Origin: a virus
IMG/VR virus record: IMGVR_UViG_3300043777_000065
Span: 1-45,943 of that record
DNA length: 45,943 nt
Reading direction: 5' to 3' (one strand)
Shown here: positions 15,930-45,943 of the stretch, one piece after another
Position numbering within the stretch: position 1 is the stretch's first letter
How the letters are laid out: the number at the start of each line of letters is the position of its first letter
Notes under the pieces: generated by a model
The model's input: only the letters and a program-made list of their open reading frames with translations
Told to the model about the DNA's origin: nothing
The model's database searches: none
Position numbers and translations under genes: made by a program

Positions 15930-18089
15930 GTGACGGCTCCACACCCTTACTTGAATATGTTTGGCCGCGACCCGCGCGCCCGGCAAGAGAGCTTGATGAC
16001 GCCGCTCGCGCGCGGATGTGTGCCGACGATCCTGCGCGGGATCGAAGGCTCTGATATTACGCAAGTCCTGCCGTACTTCGCTTCCATCTATAATCCGTCG
16101 ACCATGGCGCCCGCCAAGGTCGTCGCCTACGTCACCGACACCGCGCCGTTTTCAGTCGACGCGCTCGGGCAGTCGTTTCCGGTCGGCACGCTGTGGATCG
16201 TCGCCATGCAAGCGAACGGAAACGCTCCCACAGAGGACGGCCCATCGACGATGGTCTATCTCGCCAACGGCATCCCGTATGGCAGCGTCGGCTCTGGCAC
16301 GATTACCAACACGGCGACCAGTGCCGTCGTGGCGACGTTCTCCGTACCTTACAACGGCCCCACGGCGACGATCATCATTCCCATTGCGAGCTATCCGGCG
16401 ACAGACGGCATTACAACGAGCGTCACCTGGACCGCTGGATATCCGGTCACCGACAATTTTATCTATGCGGATGCCGAGAATTACGAGCAATGGTACGCCG
16501 TCCCCGGCACGCTGCCCTACGAGTATACGCCGAATCCCGATACTGGTCTCTGGCGGGGCGGGACCTTCGGTTGCGTCTGGCAGGATCCGAAGCGGCCGAA
16601 GGCTGGACCGAATACGACCTATGCAAATATGGGGCTCAATCTCGCCGGGCCGTCCGCTTGGAATGACAGCTATTTTGGCGTTCCTGATTATGGCAATAAC
16701 GGCATGGTGCCCTTCAGTGTTTGGATAGGTGGAGATCTCTACGCCTACGAGCAAGGCGTCACGCCCGGCCAGGCATGGCAGCCTGTCGCGCAGGGGCAGA
16801 CAGCGCTGGCGCTGGCCGGCGAGTCGTTCATCGGCGGTATCGGTCCGGTCGGTGCGCATTCGTCGACATCGGTTGGTGCACGATATGCACAGCTTGTCAT
16901 CACCTACACGCCGTCTCCCGGCCCTCCGCCATCGTCGGATAACGTAACGATTACGGTCACGCAAGACGGAGTGACGATTTACACGGTCTCTGCGACCGGA
17001 TCCGCCATCCCCGGCCTCGCCGGAACGTTTCCGCTCTCGATCACGATTCCGACCCCGCCAACCCTGACGACTTTCGTATGCACCATCACGGGCAGCACGT
17101 CCGGGACCTTCGGTTCCTATGAGCTGAGCGCCGAAGTCGGCGGAAGTCCGCGCTGCGACATCCCGCCATTGATGACGGTCCTCGGCAAGGGGATGGCGGC
17201 ACCTGGTGGATATATCCCGTCGCTCCTCTCATCTCCGATCAATCAACAGCCGCTCCAGCGCGTCATGAGCGGGACAAGCTATTCAAGCTCGACGCCCTTT
17301 AACGTCGCATTCCTGCCGACGAGCGATGGATGGTATCAGCTCGAAGTCGGCGGCACACCAACCGCCGGCATTGGCGAGGATCCATTCGGATGGCTCGACG
17401 CTCGCACGGTCGCGCGTGGACACACAGGCCGGCCGTTCTACGGCATGGCGCCTGTTGGCGGAACGGCGACCATCGTCTCGTGGTCTCCGCCAAGCCCTAC
17501 GGCGATCAGCTCAAGCGGAACGACCGTCGCCGTCAATCAGGGCTCGAAATATGCCTTTGCCTCGATCGATCTCCCAGCGGCCGGGCTCTACGATATCAAT
17601 TTCGTCGGCTCGGAGGGTCTCGTCTATAAGTCTGGTTTCCGCGTGCAATACTCGTTTACCGATCCCACATTCGTTGATCTCGACAACCTCTCCGGCTGGT
17701 TTTCCTTCATCCCGGTATGGGAATGGGTCGCGGATCTCGCGGCCGGCTCGCCCGTCTTCGGCAATACCCCACCCTCCTCGCCCTCCGGCGGCCTCGTCTA
17801 CGCGATCGGCACAGCGCCGACCGGAGCATGGGCAGGCAAGGCCGGGATGGTGGCGCAGTGGGACACGGCATCAAACACATGGGCCTTTTTCCCTCCGCAA
17901 GTCAATTCCGCCCTCCTCGACGATTGCTGGTATGACGATCGGGAATGGCATACCAATGGCACCGACCCGAATCTCTCGCTTGCCTTGCAGGTGCCCAAGG
18001 CGACGACGGTTTATCTGTTGATTGAGCTCTACGACACGATGTTCTCGACGGGAGCGGAGGAGTGCACCGTGTCCTGGGGACTCCATTGA
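15930..18089 (+). CDS. Large beta-rich tail-tip / receptor-contact protein
   Basis: 719 aa, GTG start with GAGG upstream. It is composed of successive beta domains. Around residues 320-410 lies a Thr/Val-rich Ig-like segment (DNVTITVTQDGVTIYTVSATG). Further sandwich-like domains follow to the C-terminus. Trp, Tyr and Gly are frequent, as in adhesins. The stop overlaps the next start (TGATG). As the last large structural gene it may carry receptor binding together with the fibre at 3124-6750. No enzyme motif is seen. Confidence 0.5.
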   Translation: MTAPHPYLNMFGRDPRARQESLMTPLARGCVPTILRGIEGSDITQVLPYFASIYNPSTMAPAKVVAYVTDTAPFSVDALGQSFPVGTLWIVAMQANGNAPTEDGPSTMVYLANGIPYGSVGSGTITNTATSAVVATFSVPYNGPTATIIIPIASYPATDGITTSVTWTAGYPVTDNFIYADAENYEQWYAVPGTLPYEYTPNPDTGLWRGGTFGCVWQDPKRPKAGPNTTYANMGLNLAGPSAWNDSYFGVPDYGNNGMVPFSVWIGGDLYAYEQGVTPGQAWQPVAQGQTALALAGESFIGGIGPVGAHSSTSVGARYAQLVITYTPSPGPPPSSDNVTITVTQDGVTIYTVSATGSAIPGLAGTFPLSITIPTPPTLTTFVCTITGSTSGTFGSYELSAEVGGSPRCDIPPLMTVLGKGMAAPGGYIPSLLSSPINQQPLQRVMSGTSYSSSTPFNVAFLPTSDGWYQLEVGGTPTAGIGEDPFGWLDARTVARGHTGRPFYGMAPVGGTATIVSWSPPSPTAISSSGTTVAVNQGSKYAFASIDLPAAGLYDINFVGSEGLVYKSGFRVQYSFTDPTFVDLDNLSGWFSFIPVWEWVADLAAGSPVFGNTPPSSPSGGLVYAIGTAPTGAWAGKAGMVAQWDTASNTWAFFPPQVNSALLDDCWYDDREWHTNGTDPNLSLALQVPKATTVYLLIELYDTMFSTGAEECTVSWGLH

Positions 18090-35524: not shown

Positions 35525-37888
35525 ATGCCCGATATCCTGCTGTCCGTCTCGCCCTCCGCGACGGAACCGGTTGCCCGCACGATTGCGCTTGACGCGCTGC
35601 CGTACGCCCTCTGCGGGGCCATGGATGTCTGCGGCTCGATCGAAAAGACGAGGGCTTACCGAAGGAATCCCTGCGACCGGACCAAGCGGGCATGCGTCAT
35701 GCTTCATCCTGGGGGAACGTTCACGAGCGGCGCGATGGCATCTGCCAAGACGCTGGAGACGTGCTCGAACCTCGCCGCGATCGATATCGATCATGGCAGC
35801 GATGGACGCGCACTGATCGTCGAGGATTGCGCCGAGCTGAGGAAGCGGCTGGAGAGCGATCGGCACGTGCGATTGCTCGCCCCCTCCATGAGCGGCAAGC
35901 TGTGGGGATTGGTGGCGCTTGAGGGCGAGCGTGCCGGCGCCTGGCGAGCGGCATCGGCCTACTTCGCACAGTATTATGCGATCGATGTTGGCAGCCAAGG
36001 CGACATCAGACGGGGCCGCTTCCTGGTGGCCGACGCGGGCATTGATGATGTCGTGATGGCGGAGAGCTCCGAGCCGTTCATTGCGCAATGGGAGAAGGAG
36101 GACGAGTCGGCCCAGCCAGAGGATTGGACCCGCTCCACCAGGATCGATCTGACGCGCGAGGAGCTCGCGGCGATGCTGGCTTATATCGACCCATTTTGCG
36201 ATATGGTCGAATGGGTCCGCCGGCTCGGCTGCATCAAGGCTCAGCTCGGTGAAGATGGCGCAGCGCTCGCGGAGAAATGGTCACGCGGTGAGCTCCTGAA
36301 GGAAGGGCTCGCACGCGGCCGATCGCATTACGATGACGCACGTTTCCAATCGGCCTGGCGATCGCTCAAGCGGCAGGGCGCCACGGCCAAGACGCTCGTA
36401 ATGCTGGCGCATGCCGCAGGGTATCAGAAACACGCGCCGGATGTCGACCCCAAGACGTTGATCTGGACCGAGCGCACAGCAGTGCGGCTCAAATGGCATC
36501 ATGACTTTGTCATGCGCGACAATGGCAAGGTGGGGTTTGTCCACGTGCCAACGCGCAAGGATTATAGCTCAGAGGGCCTCGATCTCGTCTACGGCCGCTA
36601 TCTCCTGACGGACGAGCAACGGAAGAAAGGCAAGGTGCGGCCTGCCATCGCGCCATCGGATGTCATCGCCAATGTGCTGCGCGTGCCAACCATTGGCGAT
36701 GATGTCTTCCGACCCGGCATGCCGGCGTTGATCGAGGAGCACGGAAAGCGTTATCTGAATCTCTGGCAGGAGGACGGCCCGGCGCCTGTGGGGGAAGCGG
36801 ATTGGAGCGATGAGGAGCGAGCGGACGTGCAATGCATGAAGGATCATCTTGACTGGTTGCTCGGTCCTGAGCATGCCCGCATCTTGGTCGCATTCCTGGC
36901 GATGGTTGTCCAGCGTGTCGGCCGCGTGCAGTGGTGCCCGCTCCTGGTTGGGCCGGATGGATGCGGGAAAACGATCGTCGCCAAGATGATGCGGGCGATG
37001 CTCGGCCGCAATGCGACTCAGATCGATGCACCATCCGTCATGACATCGCAATTCAACGATTTTGCCGCCGGGCACGAATTCGCTGCGTTGGAGGAAGTCA
37101 AGTCGACCGACAAGCCGAGCGATCACGGCGGCGAGGTCTTGGACAAGATGAAGCCTTTGATAACGAATGAGTATGTGACGTGGCATCGGAAGGGTAAACC
37201 GGCTTTCTCGATCGAGAATATGCAAACCTATTTTGCCTCGACGAATCATACCGACGCGCTCAAGCTGACGAGCAATGATCGCCGCTGGTGCCCGCTGCGA
37301 GCGCGCTTCGGCACGCAAGCCGAGTATCGCGCAAATCTCGACGCCATGGCAACGAGCTATGGAGCATACTTCGCACGGCTGCATCTGGCGGTTGAACGCT
37401 CTCCGGCGGCAATGCGCGGCTGGCTTGCGGGCGTGCGCTTCGAGGCGGGGATGCGCTTCGATGCTCCACAGACCGAGGACCGGGCAGAGATGATTGCCAT
37501 CAACCAGAGTGACCTTGATACGGCAATCGATCGATATCTTGCCCGCACGGTGGCAGGGGGCATGCCCGCAGACCAAGGAAAACCGATTCTCGTCAATGTG
37601 ACGGAGCTCAAAAAGCACTTATCCAGCGAATTCAACGAGGACGGACAGACCGGGACGACCTATCCCAACCTTTCCGGACAGGGGTTGGCACGGCGCATCA
37701 TTGCGCGCGGATATCGAAGCCTCGGGAACTCGATTTACTGGAATGGACAGCGCAATCTGTGCTTTGCCATCCTCATGTCGCACTACGACAAAGCTGTAAG
37801 TGCCACTAACGCAATACGCTCCGTATTCGAGGAAATCAGTTTGCCTTTGCAAAAGTCAAAGCCAGACAAAGCCAGACAAAGCCAGTAA
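35525..37888 (+). CDS. Primase-helicase (VirE/BT4734-like N-terminus + SF3-type helicase)
   Basis: 787 aa. Residues about 20-185 match the BT4734-like/VirE N-terminal domain. CSNLAAIDIDHGSDGRAL holds the acidic pair, SMSGKLWGLVALEG the S-G-K loop, and RRGRFLVADAGI the end of the domain. The middle includes the linker TARSH-type region. The helicase has Walker A GPDGCGKT (476-483), Walker B-like FAALEEVKS, and sensor region YFASTNHTDALKLTSNDRRW. The protein should recognise the origin, unwind it and prime synthesis. The candidate origin begins in its last codons. Confidence 0.85.
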   Translation: MPDILLSVSPSATEPVARTIALDALPYALCGAMDVCGSIEKTRAYRRNPCDRTKRACVMLHPGGTFTSGAMASAKTLETCSNLAAIDIDHGSDGRALIVEDCAELRKRLESDRHVRLLAPSMSGKLWGLVALEGERAGAWRAASAYFAQYYAIDVGSQGDIRRGRFLVADAGIDDVVMAESSEPFIAQWEKEDESAQPEDWTRSTRIDLTREELAAMLAYIDPFCDMVEWVRRLGCIKAQLGEDGAALAEKWSRGELLKEGLARGRSHYDDARFQSAWRSLKRQGATAKTLVMLAHAAGYQKHAPDVDPKTLIWTERTAVRLKWHHDFVMRDNGKVGFVHVPTRKDYSSEGLDLVYGRYLLTDEQRKKGKVRPAIAPSDVIANVLRVPTIGDDVFRPGMPALIEEHGKRYLNLWQEDGPAPVGEADWSDEERADVQCMKDHLDWLLGPEHARILVAFLAMVVQRVGRVQWCPLLVGPDGCGKTIVAKMMRAMLGRNATQIDAPSVMTSQFNDFAAGHEFAALEEVKSTDKPSDHGGEVLDKMKPLITNEYVTWHRKGKPAFSIENMQTYFASTNHTDALKLTSNDRRWCPLRARFGTQAEYRANLDAMATSYGAYFARLHLAVERSPAAMRGWLAGVRFEAGMRFDAPQTEDRAEMIAINQSDLDTAIDRYLARTVAGGMPADQGKPILVNVTELKKHLSSEFNEDGQTGTTYPNLSGQGLARRIIARGYRSLGNSIYWNGQRNLCFAILMSHYDKAVSATNAIRSVFEEISLPLQKSKPDKARQSQ

Positions 37889-38147
37889 CTTCCAAAAAAT
37901 AAACCCGAATAGGAATAAAAAATGAAATCAAAGCCAGCAAGCCAGACACAAAGCCAGACAAAGGCAAACTCCAGCGTTTTACAGGTTGTTTTGCTTGTTT
38001 TTACTCTATTTTACTGGCTTACTGGCTTTAAAATAGAAAATTGCTCTAGGAGACAAACCGAAGCCTATTCGGGTTTATTCGCTCCGCAGCCTTGGTGGAG
38101 CGCGCGTCCAGGCTCTCAACCCAAAACAAAGCCAGTAAGCCAGTAAC
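37858..38147. other. Candidate replication origin (iterons + inverted repeats)
   Basis: This AT-rich region contains ten GCCAG iterons, usually as AAGCCAG. Eight are direct (37861, 37871, 37881, 37933, 37941, 37953, 38131, 38139) and two inverted (38014, 38022). Many are spaced 8-12 bp, near one helical turn. A perfect 19-bp inverted repeat, AAAGCCAGTAAGCCAGTAA, pairs 38011-38029 with 38128-38146. A 16-bp one, AATAAACCCGAATAGG, pairs 37899-37914 with about 38061-38076. An AT-rich stretch between the arms (37976-38040) could melt. It lies directly after the primase-helicase gene, like P4-type origins. Confidence 0.65.
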
Positions 38148-38167: not shown

Positions 38168-38452
38168 ATGAACAACGAGGCAAAAGGACTTACGACGATG
38201 GCACCGATTGACCCTGTACGCGAGTCCATGTTCCCTGATGGGGGCAAAGCCCTGTCGGCCTGGCTTGATGGTGGATGGCGACCGGGCGCCCCGCCCTTCG
38301 ATCGTGTGAGCCCGCTGCATGTCTGGCAGGCTGCGCTGGGCTACAAGAGCAAGGCGGGATGGGTCCAGCTTGAAGCGATCAATCGGCAGCTCGCGCTTCT
38401 CGGTTGGAGCAAGGTCGGGAACTATTTCTATAGGCCCCTCAAGGTCTCGTGA
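38168..38452 (+). CDS. Small winged-helix-like protein next to the origin
   Basis: 94 aa from the ATG at 38168; an ATG at 38198 with AAAAGGAC upstream is a good alternative. The C-terminal half (VWQAALGYKSKAGWVQLEAINRQLALLGWSKVGNYFYRPLKV in outline) resembles the winged-helix domain that closes many phage VirE-type helicases (L..LGW...R...). It looks like a separated DNA-binding domain. Lying next to the iterons, it may help origin recognition. Confidence 0.6.
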   Translation: MNNEAKGLTTMAPIDPVRESMFPDGGKALSAWLDGGWRPGAPPFDRVSPLHVWQAALGYKSKAGWVQLEAINRQLALLGWSKVGNYFYRPLKVS

Positions 38453-44188: not shown

Positions 44189-45876
44189 GCAAGCGTAAGA
44201 AAGCGGCGAAGGTCGTTGTTGCACAGCGCGTGCGCGAGCCGCGCCGCGATCTCGTCTCGACGATGCGCGTCATCATCCCTGGCGCGAACGGCTCTCGGAT
44301 GGTCTTCGCCGCGCCGCGCATCGCGCCCTCCGGCATTCAAGCCCGGCGGGGATCGTATCGTGGCGCGAACAATCCGCGCACCCGCACACAGACCCCGTTC
44401 GGCGGATCCGGCGACCAGCACGCCGACCCGTGGACGCGCCGCATCATGCGCGAGATCAGCCGCGACATGGAGCGCAATGCCGGCGCCTACTCGACGATGC
44501 TCGACGAGTACGCCCGCGTCATGGTGGGGGATGGCGTGCGTGCGCTCTGCCGTTCAAAAGACGAGAATTGGAACAAGCTCGCCGGCGATTGGCTGCATCG
44601 CAAGTGCCTGTTGACCGGCGTCGGCTCGATCGATAGCCGGCAGCGGCAGAGCCACTACGCGCAACAGGCGGAGTTTGTCCGCTCGACGGCGCGCGATGGC
44701 GACTGCCTCATGATCCGCCGTGCAGACTTCCGCATTCAGATGGTCGAGGCGGACCAGGTGACGAGCGGCCCGGCGGCGCTCCTGGTGGGCGGCACGACGA
44801 ATGGGATGCTGAGCTATGCGGACGGCGTCCATATGGACGACGATGGCGCGACGATCTTCTACACGGTGTGTCCCTACGACGAGCGCACGGGATCGATCGC
44901 GCTTGGGCAGCCGATCAACTATCCGGCGGACGTGTGCTCCTTCGCTGCGATCAAGACGCGCATCTCGCAGACGCGCGGCATTCCGCTCCTCGTCTCCGGC
45001 ATGGTCTCCTTCGAGCGGCTCGATTCCTTCATGGAGTCGGAGGTCATTGCCGCCGAGCAAGGTTCGCAGATCTATGGCGCTGTTGAATACCCTGAGGGGA
45101 ACATGGGGTACGCCGGCACCTACGGGGCCCAATCCCCGTCGACCGGGAATGATTCGCAGCCTCCGACCCCTGGCTTTTCTGGCGGCCTCGTCAATGCACC
45201 GCAGGGGAATATTGACTGGCATGAGACCGTTGCCGGCGCCGTGATCGAGCTCCCGGACGGCAAGAAATACGTACCGATCAACCCGCAGCGGCCGAACCGC
45301 GATGCGGCGCCCTTCATGATCGAGCTCTTGCGGCAATTCAATGCCAATGGCGGATTGCCCTACGAGATCACCTACAACGACCTGCGCGGACTCTCCTGGA
45401 ACGTCCAGCGCGGCATGGTCCAGGCGGCGCGGGACAAGATCGTCGTTCCGCAAAATCTGATCTATGCGCCAGTCTTCCGCGACAACTTCCGCTGGATGCT
45501 GGCGAACGCCATCGCATCCGGCGAGCTGCCGATGGTCGAGGGCTGGGACCAGCTCGACTTGCTTTTCCCTCGCATCTCCTGGCCGGATGAGGGCAAGGAA
45601 TTCGAGGCGCAGAAAGCGGGGCTCCGGGGCGGGCTCACGACGCGCCATCGCATCTTTGGACCCGACTGGCGTTCGATGATCGATGAGCAGATGATCGAGC
45701 TGGAGTACGCGACCGAGAAGGTTGTGCAATACAACAAGCGATTCCCGGACTTCAAGATGAAGCCCCAGGAGCTCCTCGGTCTCGTCGACCATGGCGACGA
45801 GTCGACCATGGATGGCGGCGACGAGGTCAAGGCACCAGGAAAGAAAACCAAGAATCCCGAGGAGGTCGAATCGTGA
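44185..45876 (+). CDS. Portal protein (lambda family)
   Basis: 563 aa, GTG start overlapping the preceding stop as GTGA. Lambda gpB-like portal: GGSGDQHADPWTRRIMREISRDMERN is followed by the conserved helix YSTMLDEYARVMVGDGVRAL. Then come VRSTARDGDCLMIRRADFRIQMVEADQV and GGLPYEITYNDLRGLSW with the wing and stem regions. Basic N-terminus and acidic, Lys-rich C-terminus. It forms the ring through which DNA enters and leaves the head. The stop (45874-45876) lies in the terminal repeat and overlaps the protease start. Confidence 0.93.
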   Translation: MSKRKKAAKVVVAQRVREPRRDLVSTMRVIIPGANGSRMVFAAPRIAPSGIQARRGSYRGANNPRTRTQTPFGGSGDQHADPWTRRIMREISRDMERNAGAYSTMLDEYARVMVGDGVRALCRSKDENWNKLAGDWLHRKCLLTGVGSIDSRQRQSHYAQQAEFVRSTARDGDCLMIRRADFRIQMVEADQVTSGPAALLVGGTTNGMLSYADGVHMDDDGATIFYTVCPYDERTGSIALGQPINYPADVCSFAAIKTRISQTRGIPLLVSGMVSFERLDSFMESEVIAAEQGSQIYGAVEYPEGNMGYAGTYGAQSPSTGNDSQPPTPGFSGGLVNAPQGNIDWHETVAGAVIELPDGKKYVPINPQRPNRDAAPFMIELLRQFNANGGLPYEITYNDLRGLSWNVQRGMVQAARDKIVVPQNLIYAPVFRDNFRWMLANAIASGELPMVEGWDQLDLLFPRISWPDEGKEFEAQKAGLRGGLTTRHRIFGPDWRSMIDEQMIELEYATEKVVQYNKRFPDFKMKPQELLGLVDHGDESTMDGGDEVKAPGKKTKNPEEVES

Positions 45877-45943
45877 TTGCCAATGTCTCTCCCGGCCGCG
45901 TTGGCGACGGCGATCCGAAGTCGCACGGCCGCTGGCGCCTCAA
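45817..45943. repeat. Right copy of 127-bp terminal direct repeat
   Basis: Identical to bases 1-127; it carries the end of the portal gene and a partial copy (from 45873) of the start of the protease gene whose full version begins at 57. Joining the copies gives one continuous circle with intact genes. Confidence 0.95.

Follow-up and report, generated by a model that had tools for sequence, protein, structure and literature searches.

A 290-bp segment (37858-38147) adjoining the primase-helicase gene of this phage is very probably the cis-acting replication origin of that primase-helicase, organized like the crr (cis required region for replication) of P4 and the origins of SaPI elements, with iterons that the protein's own winged helix would bind and with initiator and origin apparently forming a matched pair. 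As in those two systems, a D5/SF3-type initiator helicase gene is adjacent, short iterons in both orientations lie downstream, and the segment is AT-rich.

The window, by which we mean the whole 45,943-nt stretch analyzed, is IMG/VR record IMGVR_UViG_3300043777_000065. Its first and last 127 bp (1-127 and 45817-45943) are a direct terminal repeat, indicating that the phage genome is probably complete, circular or circularly permuted, and about 45.8 kb long. Other genes of the phage specify a DNA polymerase, a helicase, and a single-strand binding protein of its own. Rfam and PADLOC searches gave no matches. The relevant features, in window coordinates, are as follows.

35525-37888, + strand: primase-helicase gene, 787 aa, with Pfam and PHROG matches (PriCT_2, DUF5906 AAA+/SF3-type helicase, C-terminal winged helix)
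37577-37780, + strand: C-terminal winged helix (aa 685-752), proposed iteron-binding domain with wing positions 737 and 743, based on the predicted structure and on co-change of the wing with the iteron word
37858-37885, + strand: R-type iterons 1-3 (AAAGCCAG, spaced 10 bp apart), lying within the primase gene at its 3′ end
37898-37913, + strand: left arm of a 16-bp inverted repeat, AATAAACCCGAATAGG, not iteron-derived
37930-37957, + strand: R-type iterons 4-6
37977-38013, no strand assigned: T-rich tract between the R iterons and the FF doublet, proposed unwinding element, based on the sequence and on relatives with a tract in the same position
38011-38029, − strand: FF iteron doublet, CTGGCTTACTGGCTTT on the + strand, first arm of a perfect 19-bp inverted repeat
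38064-38079, − strand: right arm of the 16-bp inverted repeat
38128-38146, + strand: RR iteron doublet, AAAGCCAGTAAGCCAG, which lies 114 bp from FF and provides the second arm of the 19-bp inverted repeat

The initial annotation had described ten GCCAG iterons in this segment, and all ten were present, each within the heptamer AAGCCAG. Eight are on the + strand (37859, 37869, 37879, 37931, 37939, 37951, 38129, and 38137) and two on the − strand (38014 and 38022). Only eight further copies of AAGCCAG occur elsewhere in the 46-kb window, and in 1000 dinucleotide shuffles of the 290 bp its count never exceeded 2. The change of iteron orientation within an AT-rich stretch was likewise confirmed, the segment having 43% GC compared with 55-65% in most 1-kb windows of the genome, as was the overlap of the array with the end of the initiator gene, of which the last codons hold the first three iterons and the stop codon occupies 37886-37888.

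Gene 35525-37888 matched PHROG primase families. A profile built from 36 relatives detected the C-terminal region (CTR) of NrS-1 polymerase in the PDB (hmmsearch E 2.6e-28), and the same CTR was the first fold match of the AlphaFold2 model (Foldseek E 2.9e-19) and thus the nearest solved structure; ASFV PrimPol, monkeypox virus (MPXV) E5, and the SaPI5 primase-helicase (7ola) were further fold matches. At the N terminus, where model confidence was low, a candidate AEP domain was matched by BT4734-like_N at E 0.057, below the cut-off. Judging from its sequence and predicted fold, the adjacent gene is a D5/NrS-1-type primase-helicase with a weakly supported AEP catalytic domain. At the C terminus, the predicted elements E688-691, H692-705, H718-727, E737-739, and E742-749 followed the strand-helix-helix-strand-strand order of a winged helix, with moderate confidence (block mean pLDDT about 64-87). 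A profile search with this domain found no solved homologue and no match to the NrS-1 tail.

Arrays of this kind recur after related primase genes. A primase search of the viral collection for close relatives of the locus returned none, whereas primases 22-34% identical were common. With an array defined as one 8-mer present four or more times, over both strands, in the 500 bp that follow the primase stop, and with recurrence measured across this primase family rather than within the window's own lineage, arrays were found at 36 of 71 non-redundant loci compared with 34 of 919 control windows taken from their contigs (odds ratio 27, P 7e-27). Upstream windows reached the same threshold in 3 of 64 cases, and those three carry an array of the same type upstream of the gene. 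In about half of the relatives, no such array was visible near the gene. Short repeats on both strands, with a different word in each phage, follow the primase gene in Burkholderia phage AH2, Achromobacter phage AXY1, Serratia phage JS26, Pseudomonas phage SS2019XI, Vibrio phage 1.017.O, and Stenotrophomonas phage Silvanus; BPP-1, considered as a further example, lacks iterons. As a positive control, the crr downstream of alpha was recovered in P4, with five exact copies of GGTGAACA.

Other searches gave a few separate observations. Four loci (L172, L190, L207, and L210) carry their array, with CTGGGACA / CTGTCCCA words, upstream of the primase gene and not downstream. An iteron pattern scan of IMG/VR returned, among the matches listed and inspected, mainly repeats of period 8 to 12 located elsewhere and none with the two-orientation layout of the window; a stricter scan for facing doublets gave no matches, and a profile search of genome contigs with a primase alignment smaller than the over-diverse nine-sequence one found no relatives. 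A terminase search identified L123 (IMGVR_UViG_3300043788_000064), whose terminase is 99% identical, indicating that a near relative of the phage exists; its contig ends before the origin region. At 11900-11965 of L034, a contig of an unrelated phage, an AT-rich intergenic region contains six tandem copies of an imperfect 10-bp repeat, among them CTGGCTTTGC and CCGGTTGCAC.

The iteron word differs among lineages, whereas the layout recurs. Many arrays follow one plan, in which one or more R iterons are followed by a T-rich tract, a tandem FF doublet facing the opposite way, and then R or RR. A strict automatic geometry test recognized this plan in 20 of 37 arrays, whereas 1000 orientation shuffles averaged 7.6 and never gave more than 15; the R/FF/R(R) geometry had first been noticed in the same loci that were later counted. 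In fitting arrays, start-to-start spacings were 31-69 bp from R to FF and 76-135 bp from FF to R; the window fits with R, 64, FF, 114, RR (offsets 61/125/239), and the offsets of NrS-1 in this test were 131/200/319. GAATAGG was tried as a second conserved box and discarded as weak, since it occurred in 9 of 36 arrays against about 1.7 expected and was confounded with CCGAAT iterons.

Comparison of relatives with different words connected the array to the C-terminal domain of the initiator. Four sequences of the AH2 group share GGTCCGAAT, and in L138, whose helicase region is 82-85% identical to those of its AH2-group sisters, nearly all copies are changed to ATGCCGAAT. Between L138 (ATGCCGAA) and every sister (GGTCCGAA), the wing positions always differed (R737F and Y743A). 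Between sisters sharing a word, 737 and 743 were constant while 16-17 other positions of the domain differed in the pairs examined, and the more distant L142 and L164, also with GGTCCGAA, have R and Y at these positions too. Similarly, L189 (CCATACAA) and L196 (GGTTACAA) differ at the same wing positions, and seven loci with GGTTACA-type words have the wing K-W-x-G-[KRQ]-[TA]. Over 595 pairs, winged-helix identity correlated with iteron similarity given helicase identity, with a partial rho of 0.19 (permutation P 0.008), a small effect in which phylogeny is accounted for only through helicase identity. Since the lineage-specific iteron word changes together with the wing, initiator and origin appear to be a matched pair, and the predicted winged helix and this co-change support the C-terminal domain as the putative iteron binder. 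We consider it an even call whether the pattern goes further, such that NrS-1-type primase-helicase phages share an origin plan whose word is swapped in step with two wing residues as a specificity code; the driving force might be incompatibility of co-infecting phages, or satellites copying origins.

NrS-1 itself, which provides the closest solved structure to the window's protein, carries 11 GGTTACAC-type iterons beginning 10 bp past the polymerase stop, in the same R/FF/R(R) geometry. It differs from the window in its iteron word (GGTTACAC versus AAAGCCAG) and in its Tail domain, whose fold was reported to be novel (PMC7102993) and which had no match to the family profile. The annotated hypothetical gene NRS1_29 (17055-17456 of NrS-1, L215) overlaps the entire array and was possibly called in error. 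NrS-1 polymerase needs no primer to start DNA synthesis on TTTGGTTA as the template (PMC8718748), and this sequence occurs once in the 37.0 kb of NrS-1 searched, inside the iteron array. This location would be expected if iterons were sequence-specific start templates for primers, read in single-stranded form by the primase half, rather than duplex sites for the C-terminal domain. We regard this reading as unlikely, because the iterons lie on both strands in a spaced layout as expected for duplex binding, because their changes track the C-terminal wing, and because exact TTTGGTTA is present only once among 11 NrS-1 iterons. The two roles may nevertheless coexist.

On the duplex-binding interpretation, the mechanism proposed for the window is modelled on P4 alpha and SaPI Rep, whose winged-helix or C-terminal domain recognizes the iterons (PMC4234260, PMC7581432). 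The C-terminal winged helix would bind the AAAGCCAG iterons as duplex DNA. The R and FF groups diverge, with the T-rich tract between them, and the FF doublet faces the RR doublet 114 bp away; helicase rings might then assemble on the R/FF and FF/RR groups, and the assembled protein would melt the tract, be loaded onto the two strands, and prime DNA, after which synthesis would be handed over to the phage's own DNA polymerase.

The same segment contains long inverted repeats, and the initial annotation had suggested that it could form a large cruciform or looped complex. Both perfect repeats that it reported exist, one of 19 bp (38011-38029 / 38128-38146) and one of 16 bp, and they are unmatched in length elsewhere in the genome, where no other 290-bp window exceeds 12 bp; 1000 shuffles reached 13 bp at most. 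They are not nested as had been described, since their arms are interleaved (37898, 38011, 38064, 38128), which means that simple hairpins could not form from both in a single strand; the pair that does nest within the 16-bp repeat, 37930-37945 / 38014-38029, is imperfect (15/16). A separation of more than 100 bp between arms held for one repeat (150 nt) and not for the other (98 nt). A further perfect 12-bp inverted repeat, AGTTTGCCTTTG (37838-37849 / 37959-37970), brackets the R iterons.

A functional stem-loop or cruciform built from these repeats has a precedent in plasmid pRN1, where a stem-loop of about 100 nt is required downstream of the replication gene (PMC4234260), and the region did fold better than shuffles (DNA z −3.2; RNA z −3.2 and −4.2). 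The likeness to pRN1 extends to its ORF904, which combines an AEP primase, an SF3 helicase, and a C-terminal winged helix with an origin just 3′ of the gene (PMC4234260); the pRN1 origin differs in using a stem-loop without iterons. Against such an element in the window stand the wide gaps between arms, the interleaving, and the fact that the 19-bp repeat amounts to no more than a pair of iteron doublets facing each other, as follows from the fit of the window to the R/FF/RR layout. When iterons were masked, only the window among 36 arrays retained an inverted repeat of 16 bp, so we rejected this repeat as a family feature; within the window AATAAACCCGAATAGG occurs only at this site, apart from one match with three mismatches. 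The 16-bp repeat thus lies outside the shared origin plan. A pRN1-type stem-loop origin was rejected because iterons are present and the family does not conserve long inverted repeats other than those made of iterons, and we consider a large stem-loop as the functional element highly improbable. A cruciform is not needed for the segment to act as an origin.

The position of the array, between the primase gene and a run of small genes, with a short ORF beginning about 20 bp after the last doublet, would also suit an operator at which the primase-helicase or a regulator controls transcription of the genes downstream of 38168. This is very doubtful, because in relatives the following genes differ or point the opposite way while the array still adjoins the primase gene, and because no promoter-like site was found within the segment. 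The short ORF (38168-38452, 94 aa) has a C terminus, INRQLALLGWSKVGNYFYRP, that slightly resembles the primase winged helix (hhalign E 0.0059, probability only 6%). Examined as a detached copy of that winged helix, it gave an ambiguous profile match and a predicted structure of poor quality; it could be a free-standing origin regulator. Finally, a chromosome-like bidirectional origin with a skew switch was dismissed, since cumulative GC skew, which had been expected to signal an origin near 38 kb, has no turning point at the array and its extremes at 25.9 and 1.1 kb; this skew profile also counts against the origin reading of the segment, and the cruciform gains no support from it either.

Taken as a replication origin, the segment finds its closest parallel in P4, and the earlier view of it as typical of P4-like replicons was borne out by its position, its family-wide recurrence, and the analogy to crr. 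In P4, the alpha primase-helicase gene is immediately followed by the annotated crr, whose type-1 iterons point in both directions and which, relative to alpha, reads R, FF, RR, present twice; alpha binds these repeats with a winged helix (PMC4234260). P4 differs in the bacterial-type (Toprim) primase of alpha, in a second iteron site about 5 kb away, and in the shorter spacings and other iteron word of its crr. In SaPI/PICI elements, an iteron origin lies directly downstream of the self-loading initiator helicase Rep and is recognized through the C-terminal domain of Rep (PMC7581432), and the fold match to 7ola adds to this likeness; these elements are satellite islands, whereas the window belongs to a phage with its own DNA polymerase. 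The D5-family helicase Cch2 of SCCmec similarly has a C-terminal domain that binds short repeats downstream of its own gene (PMC7581432), but with only three 5-nt iterons, a separate polymerase, and an integrated element.

An iteron origin adjacent to its initiator gene is thus known from the satellites P4 and SaPI, and here it recurs as a plan among phages that have NrS-1-type primase-helicases, the word being specific to the lineage; no earlier description of such a plan was found in the limited set of open-licence papers searched. From sequence alone, these results indicate the replication origin of a whole phage group, including Casjensviridae and NrS-1. The word changes between sister phages provide natural specificity switches with which the reading of the origin by the primase-helicase can be tested, and the known initiation template of NrS-1 now falls within a defined array, making the start of NrS-1 replication directly testable.
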